This document shows positions 4,741-11,500 of a stretch of 64,000 bases of DNA, in pieces. The stretch spans positions 1 through 64,000 of the forward strand of contig CAMYKB010000008.1 of assembly GCA_947258875.1 (NCBI GenBank). Reading direction: 5' to 3'. How positions within the stretch are numbered: position 1 is the first letter of the stretch; each line of letters opens with the position of its first letter. Under the pieces are notes generated by a model. It was given only the letters and a program-made list of their open reading frames with translations. It had not been told where the DNA came from and ran no database searches. This DNA is from an uncultured Gammaproteobacteria bacterium (GTDB lineage Bacteria; Pseudomonadota; Gammaproteobacteria; CAMYKB01). Made by a program: the position numbers and the translations under genes.

Positions 4741-4857
4741 TTGTTATATATCCGGTAGACAATTGCTTGATAAACCTAAAACCGCAACCCTGACCTGATT
4801 ATATTCGAGCGTTATCAAAACAAGGCGCATTTCTCAATTCTATTGGCAGATGATGCA

Positions 4858-5238
4858 ATGACTAAATATTATTACATGTCCCTATTTGCAGCCCTATTGT
4901 TCATGTCAATGAAGATCTATGCAGAACCGGTGCTGTATGGGATTTATTCAAACTTTAACGCTGAAGAAGAAGAGCTTTCCGGAATGGAAATGTTCTTTTT
5001 GAATGATGGCAGGGCGGGAAAATGTGATCAGTCCATCTTATTTCAAGTTGCTGAAGGATGGCCTCAATATCCTGAACTGCTGGACTGTTGTGCATGCTCG
5101 GCCGGAAACATCCAGTTTCAATCAAAGAACTGGGGAAAGTTCATCGGACACGTTGATAACGGCCACTTAATCGGTGAGTTCACCGATAGCAAGCACACAG
5201 TAAAATTAAAAAGAGGAAAAAGTTACTGGCAAAAGTAA
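4858..5238 (+). CDS. secreted hypothetical protein
   Basis: This 126-residue protein is not recognised. The start is taken at ATG 4858, because the longer frame opens with TTG at 4843. Residues 1-22 form a signal peptide (MTKYYYMSLFAALLF, cleavage likely after IYA). The mature part is about 100 residues with acidic and aromatic character, a Cys cluster (LDCCACSAG) plus one earlier Cys, and a basic C-terminus. Four Cys suggest disulfides in the periplasm, which is inference. It has low GC compared with the backbone and sits between an orphan dehydrogenase and an inverted REP pair, consistent with accessory DNA. Confidence 0.5.
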   Translation: MTKYYYMSLFAALLFMSMKIYAEPVLYGIYSNFNAEEEELSGMEMFFLNDGRAGKCDQSILFQVAEGWPQYPELLDCCACSAGNIQFQSKNWGKFIGHVDNGHLIGEFTDSKHTVKLKRGKSYWQK

Positions 5239-5397: not shown

Positions 5398-5489
5398 GTT
5401 GGGGTTTGCTACACTCACCCCAACCTACAAGTAAATATCAATATTAGCTCACCGTAGGTTGGGGTGAGTGGTGTTCTACGAACCCCAAC
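5398..5489. repeat. inverted pair of GTAGGTTGGGGTG-type REP elements
   Basis: Two copies of a roughly 33-base element face each other. The left copy reads GTTGGGGTTTGCTACACTCA and ends CCCCAACCTAC. The right copy starts GTAGGTTGGGGTGAGTG and ends GAACCCCAAC. Each copy can fold on itself through GTTGGGG/CCCCAAC, and the pair forms a larger cruciform. The GTAGGTTGGGGTGAG...GAACCCCAAC sequence is a familiar dispersed palindrome of proteobacterial genomes. It lies between the convergent ends of the hypothetical gene and the outer-membrane barrel gene, where it may also stop transcription from both sides. Confidence 0.75.
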
Positions 5490-5502
5490 AATGATTAAAC
5501 AA

Positions 5503-6702
5503 TCAAAAATACCAACCGAGTTCTACTTGCAGATAATCATCGTCGCGCAGGCTGTAGAGTACATCCTGTGGGTCGATATTACTGAATAACTGCAGTTCGC
5601 CACTGAGTTTGAAACTGTTACCCAGGCGGCGGCTGGCTTCGATACGAAAACTACGGCTGTCACTGTCAAGATCAATAATGCTGCCTGCCAGAATTTCTGT
5701 ACTCTGTGCATCATTAAATGCCAGGCGCGCGCCGGCGAACACATCATCCTGAAATGGCACCCGCGCGGCTTCTCCACGGTCATCGTAGTGATACTCAACA
5801 ATGGCGCCCAGATCCAGTGCGGATTCGAAAATACCGTAAAAGGTGTATTCAAAACCACCTACCGCGGCGGCGTAGCTGTCCACCGGGTTGTCCTGATATA
5901 TTGCTTCCAGTTTCCACAACCAGTTACCCAGGATGGCTGACACATCCAGACTGCTTTGGTCGATGAGGTTATAGCGCGGCACCAGAACGGGATTACCGTT
6001 GCCATCCAGCACGGGCAGCAGTTCGGGATTGCGTGCGGTACCACTGAAATGCGCCAGCCCGATTTCCCAGGCACCTATGATGATCTTGCTGCGCAGGGCC
6101 CAATCGATATGTTGCTGTTCGTCATCGGATTCATATTCGGCGCGGTCGGTATCGACGACTAACGGCGTGCGCAATCGCCCTTCCGCGCCGGGGAAGCTGC
6201 GTTCGCGGAAAGCGGGCAGAACGAAGAATTCCAGAGCGCCCCAATCCTGTAACCAGGTGGCCTGAATCATCGGCTGTCCGAGTTTGTCTTCGCCGTCGAG
6301 GTTTTCGACCAGGTCGGTTTGATTAATGATATCGACCAGGTGCTGCGACTCGGTGACACCCCAAAACACCTTGCCGATACCGAAACGCCATTCCCAGTCA
6401 CCCCGGGTCAGCCGGTGGTTCAGTTCACGGATATCGGCATGGCTGCGTTCCTCATCATTTTGATCAAGACGCGCAAATGCAATGAATGTGAAACCTTGGC
6501 GACGGTTGTCCCACTCATGGTAGTACTCAGGCTTGAAGGCCAGCGAGGCGTTCTCATCATTGTACTGTGCGGGACTCAGCGCATCATCCGGGAAATAACG
6601 CAACTCCGCGCTGATATCGCCAGACCACACACCAGCCACAACTGGCTGAACAGCCGACGGCAACAGTATGCCTGCGATTAAGGCAATATATTTTGCATCC
6701 AT
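5503..6702 (-). CDS. outer-membrane beta-barrel protein
   Basis: About 399 residues. I begin at the ATG at 6702 because this gives a proper signal peptide (MDAKYIALIAGILLPSAV..AG) and avoids overlap with the upstream gene. The open frame itself runs back to 6780. The mature protein alternates polar and aromatic residues in short strands separated by acidic loops (SDDEQQH, LDSDSRS), and it ends in Tyr-Phe. A C-terminal aromatic is the usual signature for BAM-inserted barrels. It is the last gene of the TetR-controlled operon, after the MMPL transporter, LolA-like protein and thioesterase, so it is the natural outer-membrane exit or docking point of that system. I cannot assign a named family with certainty. 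Confidence 0.72.
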   Translation of the reverse strand: MDAKYIALIAGILLPSAVQPVVAGVWSGDISAELRYFPDDALSPAQYNDENASLAFKPEYYHEWDNRRQGFTFIAFARLDQNDEERSHADIRELNHRLTRGDWEWRFGIGKVFWGVTESQHLVDIINQTDLVENLDGEDKLGQPMIQATWLQDWGALEFFVLPAFRERSFPGAEGRLRTPLVVDTDRAEYESDDEQQHIDWALRSKIIIGAWEIGLAHFSGTARNPELLPVLDGNGNPVLVPRYNLIDQSSLDVSAILGNWLWKLEAIYQDNPVDSYAAAVGGFEYTFYGIFESALDLGAIVEYHYDDRGEAARVPFQDDVFAGARLAFNDAQSTEILAGSIIDLDSDSRSFRIEASRRLGNSFKLSGELQLFSNIDPQDVLYSLRDDDYLQVELGWYF

Positions 6703-6709
6703 CTTGTGT

Positions 6710-7219
6710 TTATCCCGTAGGATCGAACCAGCGTTCAAAACCTGCCGGCATCTCCGGGCTGGCATGCTCACCATATCCAAGCGCCTCGATCAATTCAGTA
6801 CTGGACACCTTATCCCTGCCGCACATAAACAGACCACGGAGGCGGCCGATGGCTACCACCTTGTCGCCAATCCTGAAGCGCTGTTCCATGTAAAACCATT
6901 TTTCATCCCAGCCGATGATGCGAGTATGCAACTGATATTTTTGAAACGGATCAAGGGAGCGGCGAAAATGCATACACGCATAGCCAACGACAGGGTACCA
7001 GCGGCGTTTCAGCATAGTCTTTAAAAAATCCAGACGTAGAATCATATCGGTACGCCCCAAGTCCATGATTGTGAGATAACGCCCATTATTCATGTGCAGA
7101 TTGGTATCGAGATCATTCGGCAGCACCCTGAATTCGGTAACCGAATCATCGAGCAACTGCAGCTTTGGCCGCTGCCAGGCAGTCAGCAGCAACCACAGCA
7201 GGCGAAAATAGAGGTTCAT
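6710..7219 (-). CDS. hotdog-fold acyl-CoA thioesterase (THEM6/4HBT-like)
   Basis: This 169-residue protein has a short hydrophobic N-terminus (residues 3-15) and then a single hotdog domain. The core motif DLDTNLHMNNGRYLTIMDLGR (about residues 36-56) matches the D-x-x-x-H-x-N-N active-site segment of 4-hydroxybenzoyl-CoA/acyl-CoA thioesterases. Such enzymes cleave fatty acyl-CoA or acyl-ACP thioesters. The N-terminal hydrophobic stretch suggests membrane association. It lies 13 bases after the LolA-like gene and just before the barrel gene in the same operon, which suggests the system handles acylated lipids. The enzyme class is good; the physiological acyl chain is unknown. Confidence 0.8.
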   Translation of the reverse strand: MNLYFRLLWLLLTAWQRPKLQLLDDSVTEFRVLPNDLDTNLHMNNGRYLTIMDLGRTDMILRLDFLKTMLKRRWYPVVGYACMHFRRSLDPFQKYQLHTRIIGWDEKWFYMEQRFRIGDKVVAIGRLRGLFMCGRDKVSSTELIEALGYGEHASPEMPAGFERWFDPTG

Positions 7220-7232
7220 AGTATCAACTTCA

Positions 7233-8012
7233 CTAGCGCACGCTGCTGAGAGTGTTGGAGTTAAAGTCGCGATCCGTCAGGCCTGTGCGAAATTGATAGT
7301 TCGACCACTTAAGCAGTGTGCTTTTACCGTTCTGATGATTTTGCACAAACATCTCATCCGGCCTCCAGTAACGGCCGATATATTCCTTGTATCCTCGAGA
7401 ATCCAGAGTTTTGAGCAATGCGTTTTTACGATCATAAAACTCAACTTTGACGACGCGATACTCTGCCTGGTCTCTCCACACAATTTGCCGCGTATAACCA
7501 GAATACTCATATTCGGGTTTGCGTTCAGTGACATAGCACTGCCATTCGCCACAGGCCTCATCACGCAGGTATTTGTAGGAATACTTCTCGACTTCCTGGG
7601 AACCGAGGTCTTCGAATGCAAACTCGCTACCCATGAAGGGGCCAGACTTGTTACGCGAGTTAATGCGTTTAACACGCTTGAGCGCCGGTAGATACAACCA
7701 TTGATCGTCCGGCTTGAGTCCATGCGAGAACGTCAGCATCGCCGTACCCTTCACATCCCGTGGCTCATCAAAGATCGACATACTCTTGTCGCCTTCTCCT
7801 TCACCTTCAAGGGTCCGAATACGAATATATCGCACACTTTCGTTGCCTTTGCGGTTGCGCAGGGTCATGGTCATGTCTGCGATAAAATCACCGAATCCAG
7901 CATCGCGTTCATCGGCCGCTTTGGCGATCGCCAGGCCTTTCTCTTCGGGTGTTTCGGCCATAGCATTACTGGATAAACCAATACACAATAAAAGTATCCA
8001 TAAGTGTTTCAT
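7233..8012 (-). CDS. LolA-like outer membrane lipoprotein-sorting family protein
   Basis: This 259-residue periplasmic protein has a clear signal peptide (MKHLWILLLCIGLSSNAMA). The rest fits the family annotated 'outer membrane lipoprotein-sorting protein' (LolA-like half-barrel). Visible family features are the D-MTLRNRKG strand, the IFDEPRDVKGTAML segment, DQWLYLPALKRVKRI, and GSEFAFEDLGS. These proteins are found next to MMPL/RND transporters and are thought to bind a hydrophobic ligand in an open beta-sheet cavity. The ATG overlaps the stop of the MMPL gene by four bases (ATGA), with GAGGAG eight bases upstream, so the two are translationally coupled. It is therefore a likely periplasmic shuttle partner of that transporter. 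Confidence 0.85.
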   Translation of the reverse strand: MKHLWILLLCIGLSSNAMAETPEEKGLAIAKAADERDAGFGDFIADMTMTLRNRKGNESVRYIRIRTLEGEGEGDKSMSIFDEPRDVKGTAMLTFSHGLKPDDQWLYLPALKRVKRINSRNKSGPFMGSEFAFEDLGSQEVEKYSYKYLRDEACGEWQCYVTERKPEYEYSGYTRQIVWRDQAEYRVVKVEFYDRKNALLKTLDSRGYKEYIGRYWRPDEMFVQNHQNGKSTLLKWSNYQFRTGLTDRDFNSNTLSSVR

Positions 8013-10294
8013 GCAGTATTCTCCTCAAGCTGGATAAGCAACGGCGGCAAGAATAGAAAATCCACTATTAGTGCAATAGCGATGGTAATGGCTGTTAGTA
8101 GCCCCATACCGGCGTTGAGTTCAAATGCCGACAGCGACAGCACCAAAAAACCTGCCACCAACACCACAGTCGTCACCCAAAGAGCCACACCTACACTGGA
8201 AAAGGCATAGCGCACGGCATCTTCGGCACTCAACCCTTGTTCCCGCCGGGCACGCAAATATTTACTCAGAAAATGAATGGTGTCATCGACCACGATACCC
8301 AATGTCATACCCGCTACCACTGACAGCGCCAGCCCGACCTGCCCGACCGTTAGCGCCCAGACACCGAAGGCAATACCTGCCGGCGCAAGATTCGGTATCA
8401 GGCTGATGAGTCCCATCTTGAGTGAGCGCAGCGCAAATATCAGGATTGATGAAATCAACACTAACGCAATCGTCGTACCGAGTAACATACTACGAATATT
8501 TCGATGACCTATGTGCGAGAACATTACTGTCGGGCTTGAACCTTCCGCTTCCAGTTCAGGCGCATTACCCTGTAGCCAGTTTATGGCACGCTGTTCCAGC
8601 TCCAGCACGCGTTTCGATGAAATCGTTTTTAAGCTAACCGACATACGTGTGGCCGATTTATCAAGATTGATCTGATTATTAAGATCAAGCCCGTAAGGCA
8701 GCGACATCTCATACAATAACAAATACTGCGCAGAAAGGTCTCGTGTTTCCGGTATACGATAATAACTGGTCTCGTCGGCATGCATGTTCTTGTTAAGGCG
8801 CTTAAAAACATCTGTAATGATATTGACGTGCAACACTTCGGGTTGTTCACCATACCAATCCGCGAAGGATTCAACCTTGGCAAGAAATTCCGGTTCACTG
8901 ATACCACCCGATTCTTTGGCATTCAATGAGTAGTCAACGAAATAAAGCCCAGTGAGATTATCGGCCACCATATCGGTATCCGTCCTGAACTCGACGGATT
9001 CATCGAAATACTCGACAAATACATCGTTAAGCTCGTTCCTCGGAATCAACGCGATTAACCCCAGGGTTGCGACACCCATGCCCAACATTAATACACGGCG
9101 TCGGCGAATCACAAATTCGGCCAAATCCTGCATGAGCAGCGTGGAACGGCTTTCACGCTGCGTCACCCTCACCGGCAAGACAGATACCAGCGCGGGCAGG
9201 AAGGTGACCGTCAGTATGAAAGCGTAAACCACACCCATTGCAGTGATATTACCAAGATCGTTAAACGGTGGAGAATCACTGAAGTTCAGGCTGAGAAAAC
9301 CAATTGCCGTGGTTAGTGAAGTCAGAAAAATTGGATGATAATTAATGCGCATGCTTTCAACGATGGCTTCCTGTTTAGCATGGCCTTTGCGCATATTGAA
9401 GAGAAAGGTTGTTAGGAAATGTACGCAATCGGCTACCGCCAGCGTCAGAATCATAATCGGGGCGGATGCTGATGGTGGTGTCAGTTTGATTCCCAACCAA
9501 CCACTTGAACCCATAGCCAGCAATATCGAAGTGACGATGATCAATAATGTGACAAAGGTGCCGGTAAAGCTGCGCAGGAAAAATAGTAACCCAATAATAA
9601 TAGCAAGAAACGCTAATGGCACCAGGGTCTTCATGTCGTTTTTCGACGCTTCCGGAAAGGCATTATTTAGCATCACCACCCCAGTTACGTAAAAATCGAT
9701 TTGTGGATATTTTCGTTCCATCTGTTGCAGCAAGTCGCGCACGTGCTGCACCACCTCTGGCGTCTCATGGTTCTGATCTACGCCCGGCATTTCTATTGTT
9801 ACATTGACGCCCGTTGCATGCGCATCAGGAGAAATAACGCGGTTGCGCAGTAGCGGCTCGCGGGTTGAGATAGACTTTGCCGTTACAAAATCCTCTGCAC
9901 TCAACACTTGTAGATCGAGCACCAGATCCTCAACAACCAGGTCATCGCCTTCTGCATAGGTGTTCTGAAAATTGGTTACAGAGTCTACGCGTCTTGAATA
10001 TGGTATTTGCCAGGCCGCTTCAGTTAGTTCCTGCACGGCCTGCAGGGTATGTTGTGTAAAGACGCCGCCATCCTTGGGAATTAACATAAACAGGACATTA
10101 TCGTTCTTAATATAAGTATCCTGCAGGTTCTCAAATGCTTCGAGTTGCGGATTAGTCTTACCGAAAAACACCCGGTAGTCATTCGTGAACTCAAGGAATC
10201 GCCCGCCACTGGCAACTACAGCGGTGATTAGTAAGGTAGCGATAATAATCAACCACCGCCAACGCAATACAGCCCGCGTGTATGTCTCGATCAT
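8009..10294 (-). CDS. MMPL/RND-superfamily transporter
   Basis: This 761-residue inner-membrane protein has the duplicated RND layout. A first membrane helix (about residues 12-30) is followed by a large periplasmic loop (about 35-210) and a block of five helices (about 215-365). The second half repeats this with a helix near 390, a loop, and a block at about 600-755. Sterol-sensing/MMPL-type motifs are visible, such as SAPIMILTLAVADCVHFL and GMTLGIVVDDTIHFLSKYL, with the Asp-Asp pair that relays protons. Family members export lipids and other hydrophobic compounds to the periplasm. It is coupled to the LolA-like gene downstream and follows tetR by 53 bases with a GAGGA ribosome site. Substrate unknown. 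Confidence 0.88.
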   Translation of the reverse strand: MIETYTRAVLRWRWLIIIATLLITAVVASGGRFLEFTNDYRVFFGKTNPQLEAFENLQDTYIKNDNVLFMLIPKDGGVFTQHTLQAVQELTEAAWQIPYSRRVDSVTNFQNTYAEGDDLVVEDLVLDLQVLSAEDFVTAKSISTREPLLRNRVISPDAHATGVNVTIEMPGVDQNHETPEVVQHVRDLLQQMERKYPQIDFYVTGVVMLNNAFPEASKNDMKTLVPLAFLAIIIGLLFFLRSFTGTFVTLLIIVTSILLAMGSSGWLGIKLTPPSASAPIMILTLAVADCVHFLTTFLFNMRKGHAKQEAIVESMRINYHPIFLTSLTTAIGFLSLNFSDSPPFNDLGNITAMGVVYAFILTVTFLPALVSVLPVRVTQRESRSTLLMQDLAEFVIRRRRVLMLGMGVATLGLIALIPRNELNDVFVEYFDESVEFRTDTDMVADNLTGLYFVDYSLNAKESGGISEPEFLAKVESFADWYGEQPEVLHVNIITDVFKRLNKNMHADETSYYRIPETRDLSAQYLLLYEMSLPYGLDLNNQINLDKSATRMSVSLKTISSKRVLELEQRAINWLQGNAPELEAEGSSPTVMFSHIGHRNIRSMLLGTTIALVLISSILIFALRSLKMGLISLIPNLAPAGIAFGVWALTVGQVGLALSVVAGMTLGIVVDDTIHFLSKYLRARREQGLSAEDAVRYAFSSVGVALWVTTVVLVAGFLVLSLSAFELNAGMGLLTAITIAIALIVDFLFLPPLLIQLEENTA

Positions 10295-10347
10295 CTGATT
10301 GTCCTCATCCGTAGTTTTTTAGAGATCAGTCAACAGGATTAACAATT

Positions 10348-11037
10348 TTAGGTATGCAGACTTTTAAGATAATGAATTAAACCAGTGCCACAGGCATGCA
10401 GCACATCGATACTTTGGGCAACCTTGGCGCTCCCCAGACAACCTTCGAGCGAGGCCACAATGAAAATCGCGGCTTTTTCAACATTCACACTTGGACGCAC
10501 CTGTCCATGCCCCTGTCCGCGGCGCAATGCCTGAGCAATCGCCTCCCGCCATTCATCGTATATGGATTCAAGTCTGGACTTGAATCCGGCATCAATCGGC
10601 GACATCTCCTGGCTTAGGTTGTTCAGTGGACAACCCAGCCGCACCATCTCCTCATCGATTTGCTTACCCTCTTCCTGTAACAGGGTGATAAAGGTAACGA
10701 TAGGATCATTCGCCTCTTGCATGGGTTTGACCCAACGTTCTCGCAAGGTCGTAGCAATGATTTCATCGACAACTGCATAGCCCAGGGCTTGCTTGTTCGG
10801 GAAGTGGTGATATAACGCACCTTTGGTGACGCCGGTGTCCTTGAGTATTCTGGAGAGACTGGCCGCCTGAAAACCCTGCTCATGAATCTCGCGAAAAGCC
10901 GCCTCTAACAAGAGCAAGCGGGTTTGTTCGCCGGCACTCTCACAGCGCTCGCAGCGCCACCAGTGATAGCGCGCACTAAGTACGTCATGAAGCTTTTCAC
11001 CAATTCGCCCGTGACGGCGCCGCGCTGTTGTAGACAT
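10348..11037 (-). CDS. TetR/AcrR-family transcriptional regulator
   Basis: About 229 residues from the ATG at 11037, which overlaps the MAPEG stop codon by one base (TGATG) and has GAGG upstream; the frame itself is open further. The TetR helix-turn-helix is clear: AAFREIHEQGFQAASLSRILKDTG then VTKGALYHHFPNKQALG (about residues 45-85). The C-terminal half is the usual all-helical ligand domain. Before the HTH lies an extension of about 36 residues, rich in Arg/His, with a CxxC pair (WRCERC), which is unusual for the family. Two palindromic sites that flank and overlap the promoter of this operon are the obvious operators, so it probably represses its own operon and responds to a hydrophobic inducer. 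Confidence 0.88.
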   Translation of the reverse strand: MSTTARRRHGRIGEKLHDVLSARYHWWRCERCESAGEQTRLLLLEAAFREIHEQGFQAASLSRILKDTGVTKGALYHHFPNKQALGYAVVDEIIATTLRERWVKPMQEANDPIVTFITLLQEEGKQIDEEMVRLGCPLNNLSQEMSPIDAGFKSRLESIYDEWREAIAQALRRGQGHGQVRPSVNVEKAAIFIVASLEGCLGSAKVAQSIDVLHACGTGLIHYLKSLHT

Positions 11038-11423
11038 CAGACTAACCTCACAGCATTTGCCACCGTCAGACCTAAAATAACCAACCAACTCAGCAACGTG
11101 CCATAAAAACGACCGAATGAGGCACCCGAATGTCTGCTCATACCCCAGGCGTGAATTGCACGCGCAATGATCAACACCGCACCGAATCCATGCACCAAAA
11201 GGCTCGCCCCATTCGCTTCCAGCAACAACATCATCAGCAATGCCAGCGGAATATTTTCGACTGCGTTACCATGCGCAGCGATCGCGCGTGCCAGTTCGCG
11301 CTTACCGCCGTCGCCAAGCCCAACACGCTCACTACGACGCAGTACGGTTACGCGCCAGGCCAGGAAGATGATGAGCGGGGCCAGGATGACTGCATACAGC
11401 GTTGTTATTGGAATGGCTGGCAT
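11037..11423 (-). CDS. MAPEG-family membrane protein
   Basis: This 128-residue integral membrane protein has four hydrophobic helices. The MAPEG signature is readable: RAIAAHGNAVENIPLALLMMLLLE (Arg, His-Gly-Asn, Glu-Asn-x-Pro) about residues 46-70. MAPEG proteins bind glutathione and act on lipophilic substrates, as in eicosanoid and glutathione metabolism in eukaryotes; bacterial members are poorly defined. It is the first gene of the TetR-controlled operon and has a good ribosome site (GGAGG, four bases before ATG). Its position ahead of tetR and a lipid-type transporter suggests a role in handling lipophilic or oxidised compounds, which is inference. Confidence 0.85.
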   Translation of the reverse strand: MPAIPITTLYAVILAPLIIFLAWRVTVLRRSERVGLGDGGKRELARAIAAHGNAVENIPLALLMMLLLEANGASLLVHGFGAVLIIARAIHAWGMSRHSGASFGRFYGTLLSWLVILGLTVANAVRLV

Positions 11424-11454
11424 TACGCCTCCGTCTTTGGGTAAAACTCATAAA

Positions 11455-11500
11455 CATACCGATTGGTATGTTTATACATACCAATCGGTATGTTTGTCAA
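11455..11500 (-). promoter_or_regulatory. TetR-controlled promoter with two inverted operators
   Basis: On the minus strand a near-consensus sigma70 promoter is visible: TTGACA (11500-11495), an 18-base spacer, then TATAAA (11476-11471), reading toward the MAPEG gene. Two 16-base copies of an imperfect palindrome surround the -10: CATACCAATCGGTATG at 11477-11492, filling the spacer, and CATACCGATTGGTATG at 11455-11470, just downstream. They are inverted relative to each other with centres 22 bp apart, about two helical turns. This is the arrangement expected for two TetR-family dimers blocking RNA polymerase. A perfect CCTCTAGAGG palindrome at 11501-11510 adjoins it on the bioD side. Confidence 0.88.

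Follow-up and report, generated by a model that had tools for sequence, protein, structure and literature searches.

A probably TetR-controlled operon for an MMPL pump, a LolA-like carrier and a beta-barrel in an uncultured gammaproteobacterium: a candidate export route for a hydrophobic molecule

The first 64,000 nucleotides of contig CAMYKB010000008.1 (assembly GCA_947258875.1) from an uncultured gammaproteobacterium of the lineage CAMYKB01, hereafter the window, carry a tightly packed six-gene operon on the minus strand (11423-5503), which encodes in order a MAPEG protein, a TetR repressor, an MMPL inner-membrane pump, a LolA-like periplasmic carrier, a thioesterase and an outer-membrane beta-barrel. 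Comparison of sequences and gene order among relatives supports the MMPL pump, LolA-like carrier and barrel as a conserved functional unit. The operon probably (at about 0.6) serves the TetR-autorepressed, proton-driven export of a hydrophobic molecule, probably of the acyl or polyketide type, for which we infer both the substrate and the direction of transport.

The conserved pump, carrier and barrel

Conservation was examined in a survey of 274 genomes drawn from the class and in a second sample of 80 named loci, the former being less biased since the named loci were chosen by the barrel. In the class survey, the barrel gene is directly downstream and on the same strand in 80 of 95 strong LolA matches, with a median gap of 48 nt, and a barrel is present in every genome with a strong LolA (86/86). 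Among the named loci with enough upstream sequence, LolA is directly upstream of the barrel in 55 of 64 and MMPL is directly upstream of LolA in 43 of 48 (or 44 with the tandem pump copy of L108 included), while all six plasmid records with the barrel also contain LolA. The usual order is MMPL-LolA-barrel, preceded by TetR in a Photobacterium relative (L141) and with MMPL and LolA fused in L176, and the trio is also found in Alphaproteobacteria (L140) and Bacteroidota (L189). One species-level pattern scan placed the barrel at more than 560 places among the matches listed. In the window, the MMPL gene, the PF17131 carrier gene and the barrel gene follow this order on the same strand, with the thioesterase gene between the carrier and the barrel. 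The initial annotation had regarded all six genes as parts of one traffic line and had proposed a search for co-occurrence of the MMPL, LolA-like, barrel and thioesterase genes; the search retained the trio, with the barrel directly downstream of 80 of the 95 strong LolA matches, but not the full set, since MAPEG and the thioesterase are mostly absent or replaced in relatives and the thioesterase is rarely kept.

Six minus-strand open reading frames are present as initially described, and Pfam families were assigned to five of the six proteins, each well over the cut-off, with the barrel as the exception. The pump gene (8009..10294; PF03176, 138 bits) overlaps the carrier gene (7233..8012; LolA_like PF17131, 208 bits) by ATGA, as read from the sequence, which agrees with the translational coupling suggested earlier for this pair. 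The thioesterase gene follows the carrier gene after 13 nt and the barrel gene follows after a further gap of 7 nt. The barrel gene (5503..6702) most likely starts at the ATG at 6702, which begins a signal peptide, rather than at the longest-ORF (open reading frame) start at 6780.

The pump has 11 membrane segments by hydropathy and the motif GIVVDDTIHF, in which D670, D671 and H674 are invariant in 46 of 46 homologues, and it is presumably proton-coupled, as expected of an RND protein with a DD..H motif. It resembles the HAE3 type, with a TIGR00921 score (178.8 bits) under the cut-off of 351.9, and its best sequence matches in the PDB, albeit weak ones, are the siderophore exporters MmpL4/5. 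The pump is not assigned to the hopanoid transporter HpnN (NF052374, 33.7 bits against a cut-off of 1100; TIGR03480, 118.4 against 751.85). HAE1-type tripartite efflux was also set aside, as the operon encodes neither a membrane-fusion protein nor a TolC-type channel and the predicted barrel is porin-like.

The carrier (259 aa) begins with a signal peptide that lacks a lipobox, as read from the sequence. Its AlphaFold2 model, compared using Foldseek, matches LolA-superfamily proteins with E-values down to 1.2e-32 and thus has the LolA fold. The best structural and sequence match is PDB 3bk5, which we take to be the VPA0919-type protein of Vibrio parahaemolyticus, with a template modelling (TM) score of 0.94 normalised to the target (0.85 to the query), 57% identity and a sequence E-value of 4.7e-87; no function for the 3bk5 protein was found in the open-access literature. 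The model is closer to 3bk5, to LolA3 of Porphyromonas gingivalis (9tp6) and to the DUF1329 protein 4z48 than to true LolA, for which the matches are about 4e-9 and weaker with query-normalised TM scores of about 0.4-0.45. The carrier also matches DUF1329 at 29.4 bits, over the cut-off of 23.1, across part of the profile only.

Further PF17131 proteins were also observed. The same genome (G000) has a second LolA-like gene, cut at the contig end (contig C50:1-744, L188), downstream of an apparent copper/heavy-metal P-type ATPase cluster, the identity of which was read from the protein sequences. At L174:6360-9125, a response-regulator protein has the PF17131 domain as its C-terminal part, and the protein at L175:2221-4896 has a similar N-terminus and likewise a C-terminal LolA-like match. 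These two long LolA proteins adjoin apparent RND efflux pump genes and were rejected as MMPL fusions, the former being a response-regulator fusion and the latter lacking an MMPL match.

The barrel has no family in Pfam or NCBIfam. Its AlphaFold2 model, built with 45 relatives in the alignment, is nevertheless a confident predicted beta-barrel of approximately 16-18 strands (pLDDT 90.9, pTM 0.83), which bears out the outer-membrane barrel named in the initial annotation; the FWGVTESQHLVDIINQ motif, where conservation is highest, is modelled with the least confidence. The PDB structures closest to the barrel are those of generic porins and of the alginate exporter AlgE (TM about 0.4-0.6). Membership in DUF1302 was rejected given the lack of a Pfam match and an hhalign probability of 1.7%, and only one of 45 barrel relatives has a DUF1302 match below 0.001. 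Bridging sequences do exist, such as a single protein at L177 that matches both the barrel profile and DUF1302. Sequence searches of the PDB with the barrel, the thioesterase and the MAPEG protein gave no useful match.

Barrel genes without a neighbouring LolA or MMPL were observed at L049, L052, L055, L068, L071, L072, L073, and L083, several of which come from large sulfur bacteria (Thiomargarita, Marithrix, and Halobeggiatoa); their partners may be located elsewhere in those genomes. On a 23.9-kb Pseudoalteromonas plasmid (NZ_CP118497.1, L139), MMPL-LolA adjoins gamma-mobile-trio recombinase genes and the barrel is on the opposite strand, and horizontal transfer of the system is possible based on this plasmid.

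Probable TetR control and the accessory genes

The TetR repressor gene (10348..11037, minus strand; TetR_N PF00440, 53.9 bits; TetR_C_13, 51.5 bits) is separated from the MMPL gene by 53 nt, and its start overlaps the MAPEG stop in TGATG, as read from the sequence. Upstream of the operon, a sigma-70-like promoter pair, TTGACA-N18-TATAAA, can be read on the minus strand, with a -35-like hexamer TTGACA (11495..11500) located 18 nt before the -10-like hexamer TATAAA (11471..11476). This pair was not listed by a strict consensus promoter scan because the -10 hexamer ends in A and lacks the final T. Two perfect 18-bp palindromes accompany it, with centres 22 bp or two helical turns apart. The first operator (ACATACCGATTGGTATGT on the minus strand, 11476..11493), a perfect match to CATACCNNNNGGTATG, is within the promoter spacer, and the second (ACATACCAATCGGTATGT on the minus strand, 11454..11471), a perfect palindrome copy, abuts the -10 hexamer downstream. 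The TetR helix-turn-helix domain together with these palindromic operator-like sites at its own operon is as expected of the TetR family, and the single promoter with two operators described in the initial annotation is borne out by the two palindromes at this promoter-like pair.

Allowing up to one mismatch, the palindrome pattern occurs twice in the window compared to 0.17 occurrences expected by chance, and the only perfect copies of CATACCN4GGTATG in the 3.01-Mb genome are these two operators. Among the 80 named loci (1.1 Mb), perfect copies were found in only ten, all of which have an orthologous TetR, and they are always located at the start of the orthologous tetR. Because of this distribution in the genome and in the ten relatives, TetR is very probably a local repressor that acts on its own operon and on little else, as predicted from the operators, and the TetR control proposed earlier thus gains ground. 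A bioD-like gene (11532, plus strand) borders on the same intergenic region and might also be under TetR influence. This TetR adjoins the pump in 12 of 47 relatives with visible upstream sequence, and in others a different TetR occupies the pump-adjacent position. Judging from these gene neighborhoods, TetR control of the trio is common and the particular repressor is exchangeable, since different TetR proteins occupy the same place.

The MAPEG-family small membrane protein (11037..11423, minus strand; PF01124, 85.8 bits) and the hotdog thioesterase (4HBT_2, 6710..7219, minus strand; PF13279, 83.9 bits), which has a hydrophobic N-terminus, are considered accessory. A thioesterase gene occupies the same slot in G136 (L125) only and adjoins a barrel without LolA in G033 (L039); no other thioesterase gene with the barrel was found in the 274 genomes searched. 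MAPEG occurs with the trio at a single further locus (L069) and in none of the 274 genomes. A candidate MAPEG linkage to the LolA locus of G010 (L126) was rejected, as the two genes are approximately 3.5 kb apart with opposite-strand genes between them. The full six-gene set was accordingly dismissed as a conserved system, as it was not seen elsewhere in the MAPEG and thioesterase searches of these genomes. Other relatives have other accessory genes, including a PEMT/ICMT-type methyltransferase (six relatives) and, between MMPL and LolA, a GFA protein (L067) or a CMD/AhpD-like protein (L048). Because the accessory genes differ between relatives, the six-gene route is best read from gene content as a conserved trio with changeable enzymes. 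Barrels from L109, L054, L082, L089, and L124 have an N-terminal SPOR-like extension (a Pfam SPOR match in L109), which suggests that the barrel is tied to septal peptidoglycan in some lineages.

Just 3' of the barrel stop is a long near-perfect hairpin (5403-5490, minus strand; minimum free energy -53.3 kcal/mol, z -8.0), which consists of two inverted GTAGGTTGGGGTGAG copies. The repeat core is dispersed in the genome, where the 15-mer or a one-mismatch form of it was counted at nine places compared to none in the control. By appearance, the hairpin looks like a REP/REPIN-type repeat, and it may also serve as the mRNA 3' end. Convergent with the operon, a gene on the plus strand (4843-5238) encodes a small, secreted-looking protein of 131 aa with no family match in the Pfam or NCBIfam scans. 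A phage or viral origin of the operon was rejected, as neither viral relatives nor a PHROG match were found.

Relation to described systems

No named system for the MMPL-LolA-barrel trio was found in the open-access literature, where no paper treats the trio as one machine. The architecture itself is not new, as TetR/MMPL/LolA-like/'hypothetical' operons have already been reported, unnamed, in Bacteroidota (PMC10434189, PMC10470040). The initial annotation knew of no described system with the full set and its regulation; this stands in that no name for the trio was found, but must be qualified by the four-gene architecture already on record.

Among the closest described cassettes is AmeABCD of Castellaniella defragrans, an apolar monoterpene efflux cassette of DUF1302, DUF1329, YCF48-like, and HAE3 proteins, the deletion of which decreases monoterpene tolerance and increases Nile Red accumulation (PMC6394551). 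Both cassettes combine a single pump of the MMPL/HAE3-like kind with a LolA-superfamily periplasmic protein and an outer-membrane barrel, with a hydrophobic cargo (a putative one for the window operon). In contrast to AmeABCD, the window operon has no gene for a YCF48/BNR-type protein, its carrier is a 259-aa PF17131 protein rather than a 450-aa DUF1329 protein, its barrel is not recognised as DUF1302, and it is probably TetR-controlled with additional thioesterase and MAPEG genes. Identity with AmeABCD was therefore rejected, given the missing YCF48-type gene, the missing DUF1302 match and a separate AmeABCD-like cassette in the same genome. The latter (contig C6:74.5-81.5 kb, L138) is complete, with DUF1302, DUF1329-like, third periplasmic-type, and MMPL genes. 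A remote kinship of the trio with AmeABCD-type cassettes is likely, because the carrier weakly matches DUF1329 and bridging barrels such as that of L177 exist.

PG1178-PG1181 of P. gingivalis and the Prevotella counterparts encode TetR, MMPL, LolA-like and hypothetical proteins and are among the strongest iron/hemin-starvation responses in those data (PMC10434189, PMC10470040). The four core gene types are shared with the window, the P. gingivalis operon being matched by description with only LolA3 (9tp6) compared directly. In Prevotella nigrescens (L189), carrier, pump and barrel are homologous to those of the window, the carrier with 32% identity (E 4e-37), the pump with E 3e-44 and the barrel, which is annotated as DUF1302, with E 2.7e-8. 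The Bacteroidota operons differ from the window in their TetR (that of Prevotella is distantly similar), in extra ABC genes in Prevotella, in iron/hemin regulation, and in lacking the thioesterase and MAPEG. In Thalassolituus oleivorans, growth on n-C28 alkane induces TOL_3187 (an MMPL+LolA protein) and the neighboring porin TOL_3188 (PMC6304351). The likeness, by description, lies in a domainless porin encoded next to MMPL and LolA-like domains, whereas in TOL_3187 the two domains are in one protein, as in L176.

The Lol pathway (LolA/LolB/LolCDE) shares with the window operon the fold of the carrier and the concept of a soluble acyl-chain shuttle, but an MMPL pump replaces LolCDE and a barrel is the endpoint. 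The operon was not assigned to this pathway, as LolB and LolCDE are not encoded in the operon (the genome elsewhere was not searched) and the LolA3-LolB interaction is weak (PMC13103446). LolA2/LolB2 of the flexirubin cluster in Flavobacterium johnsoniae provide another case in which a LolA-like protein is encoded together with the pathway for a lipid or pigment, although they represent a different LolA subfamily with a LolB partner (PMC11885536).

Proposed cargo and direction of transport

In the export route proposed here, the proton-driven MMPL pump would lift the molecule from the inner membrane and pass it to the LolA-like shuttle, which would be made beside the pump through translational coupling. 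The shuttle would then carry the molecule across the periplasm to the dedicated barrel, which would release it or place it in the outer leaflet, and TetR would let go of its operators once the substrate or a related molecule builds up. The thioesterase could cleave a thioester to provide the free acid, and MAPEG could modify or detoxify a lipophilic molecule, both as local add-ons to the core trio.

A hydrophobic or acyl cargo is proposed because of the component types, the gene contexts, the published relatives and the thioesterase. LolA-fold proteins hold acyl chains, and a thioesterase in the operon fits an acyl-thioester precursor. HAE-2/HAE-3 pumps move lipids and hopanoids (PMC8277102). 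On a Sulfitobacter plasmid, a type I polyketide synthase gene directly precedes MMPL-LolA, the barrel gene comes two genes later, and condensation-domain proteins are encoded close by. On a Halioglobus plasmid, SDR, AMP-ligase, and FAD-enzyme genes are upstream of the trio and P450 and KASIII genes are downstream, with a transposase gene between the trio and the P450 gene. The traffic of an acylated or hydrophobic molecule suggested in the initial annotation thus appears to be the best reading, drawn from two biosynthetic contexts and the published related cassettes, with its substrate and direction still putative.

Several points weigh against export of this kind. The substrate, the direction and the handover between the parts are all matters that we infer. 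Fifteen of the 95 strong LolA matches in the class survey have no adjacent barrel, and several barrels stand alone, as in Beggiatoa-like genomes. The modelled barrel is as similar to generic porins as to exporters and could have a role in uptake. The roles of MAPEG and the thioesterase are guesses, because the full six-gene set has been seen nowhere else. The Porphyromonas counterpart operon responds to low iron/hemin, a response that gives no hint of lipid export (PMC10434189, PMC10470040). In Bacteroidota, this may mean that the cargo is different or that the envelope is altered when iron is limiting.

The operon could instead function in detoxification, exporting lipophilic electrophiles or lipid breakdown products that MAPEG conjugates or reduces and that TetR senses through an invariant cysteine. 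MAPEG in the window and in L069, the glutathione-dependent GFA protein in L067 and the CMD/AhpD-like protein in L048 would suit this function, as would TetR Cys136, which is invariant in 15 of 15 orthologues, and the weak TetR matches to AcuR and NemR. However, each of these accessory genes is confined to one or two loci and six relatives have the PEMT/ICMT-type methyltransferase. Cys136 may also be structural rather than sensing, because its motif is common to other members of the same TetR group. Detoxification is thus considered unlikely, at perhaps half the weight that an open question would be given.

An uptake or retrograde route, in which the barrel admits a hydrophobic nutrient such as an alkane or lipid and the carrier and pump work inward or clear outer-membrane lipid, would agree with the porin-like fold of the modelled barrel and with TOL_3188, set beside the trio by description, for which a role as a porin taking up n-C28 alkane has been proposed (PMC6304351). 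The HAE-2/HAE-3 relatives of the pump are described as lipid/hopanoid exporters (PMC8277102), though, the Sulfitobacter and Halioglobus biosynthetic contexts fit export, and the related AmeABCD lowers dye accumulation (PMC6394551), all of which make inward transport quite improbable.

Slightly less probable again is iron- or heme-linked transport, in which the cargo would be a hydrophobic iron carrier or porphyrin, as could be expected from the Bacteroidota operons. When iron is low, expression of PG1175-1181 rises by 13- to 136-fold (PMC10434189), and TetR, LolA-like, hypothetical, and MMPL genes top the hemin-repressed list by P-value, with log2 changes of -7.4 to -8.1 (PMC10470040). The LolA, MMPL and barrel of Prevotella L189 are homologous to the window trio, and the siderophore exporters MmpL4/5 are the best, if weak, PDB sequence matches of the pump. 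On the other hand, the Bacteroidota TetR differs, the window operon lacks the two additional ABC genes found there, and the TetR operator is the sole regulator site found at the operon, where iron boxes were not looked for. A lipoprotein-sorting branch, in which the LolA-like protein takes a specific lipoprotein to the outer membrane, is highly improbable despite the LolA superfamily fold and records annotated as 'outer membrane lipoprotein-sorting protein', as the operon has no lipoprotein, LolB or LolCDE gene, true LolAs are distant (TM about 0.4-0.45 compared to 0.85 for 3bk5, query-normalised), and the P. gingivalis homologue LolA3 interacts weakly with LolB (PMC13103446).

Export of a hydrophobic molecule by the trio would bear on the long-standing question of how hydrophobic molecules other than lipopolysaccharide and lipoproteins cross the Gram-negative periplasm, for which the trio provides a complete candidate path. 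The unclassified barrel family and the mapped candidate site of self-repression make induction screens and lipid profiling feasible. The trio might likewise shed light on the Porphyromonas iron-response operon, the structures 3bk5 and LolA3 (9tp6), and the alkane-induced TOL_3187/3188. More tentatively, and with somewhat less than even odds, MMPL-LolA-barrel may be an envelope machine of general use across phyla, exporting a variety of lipophilic products through a soluble LolA-type shuttle and an unclassified dedicated barrel, with plug-in enzymes (thioesterase, MAPEG, PEMT-type methyltransferase, or polyketide synthase) for each cargo.

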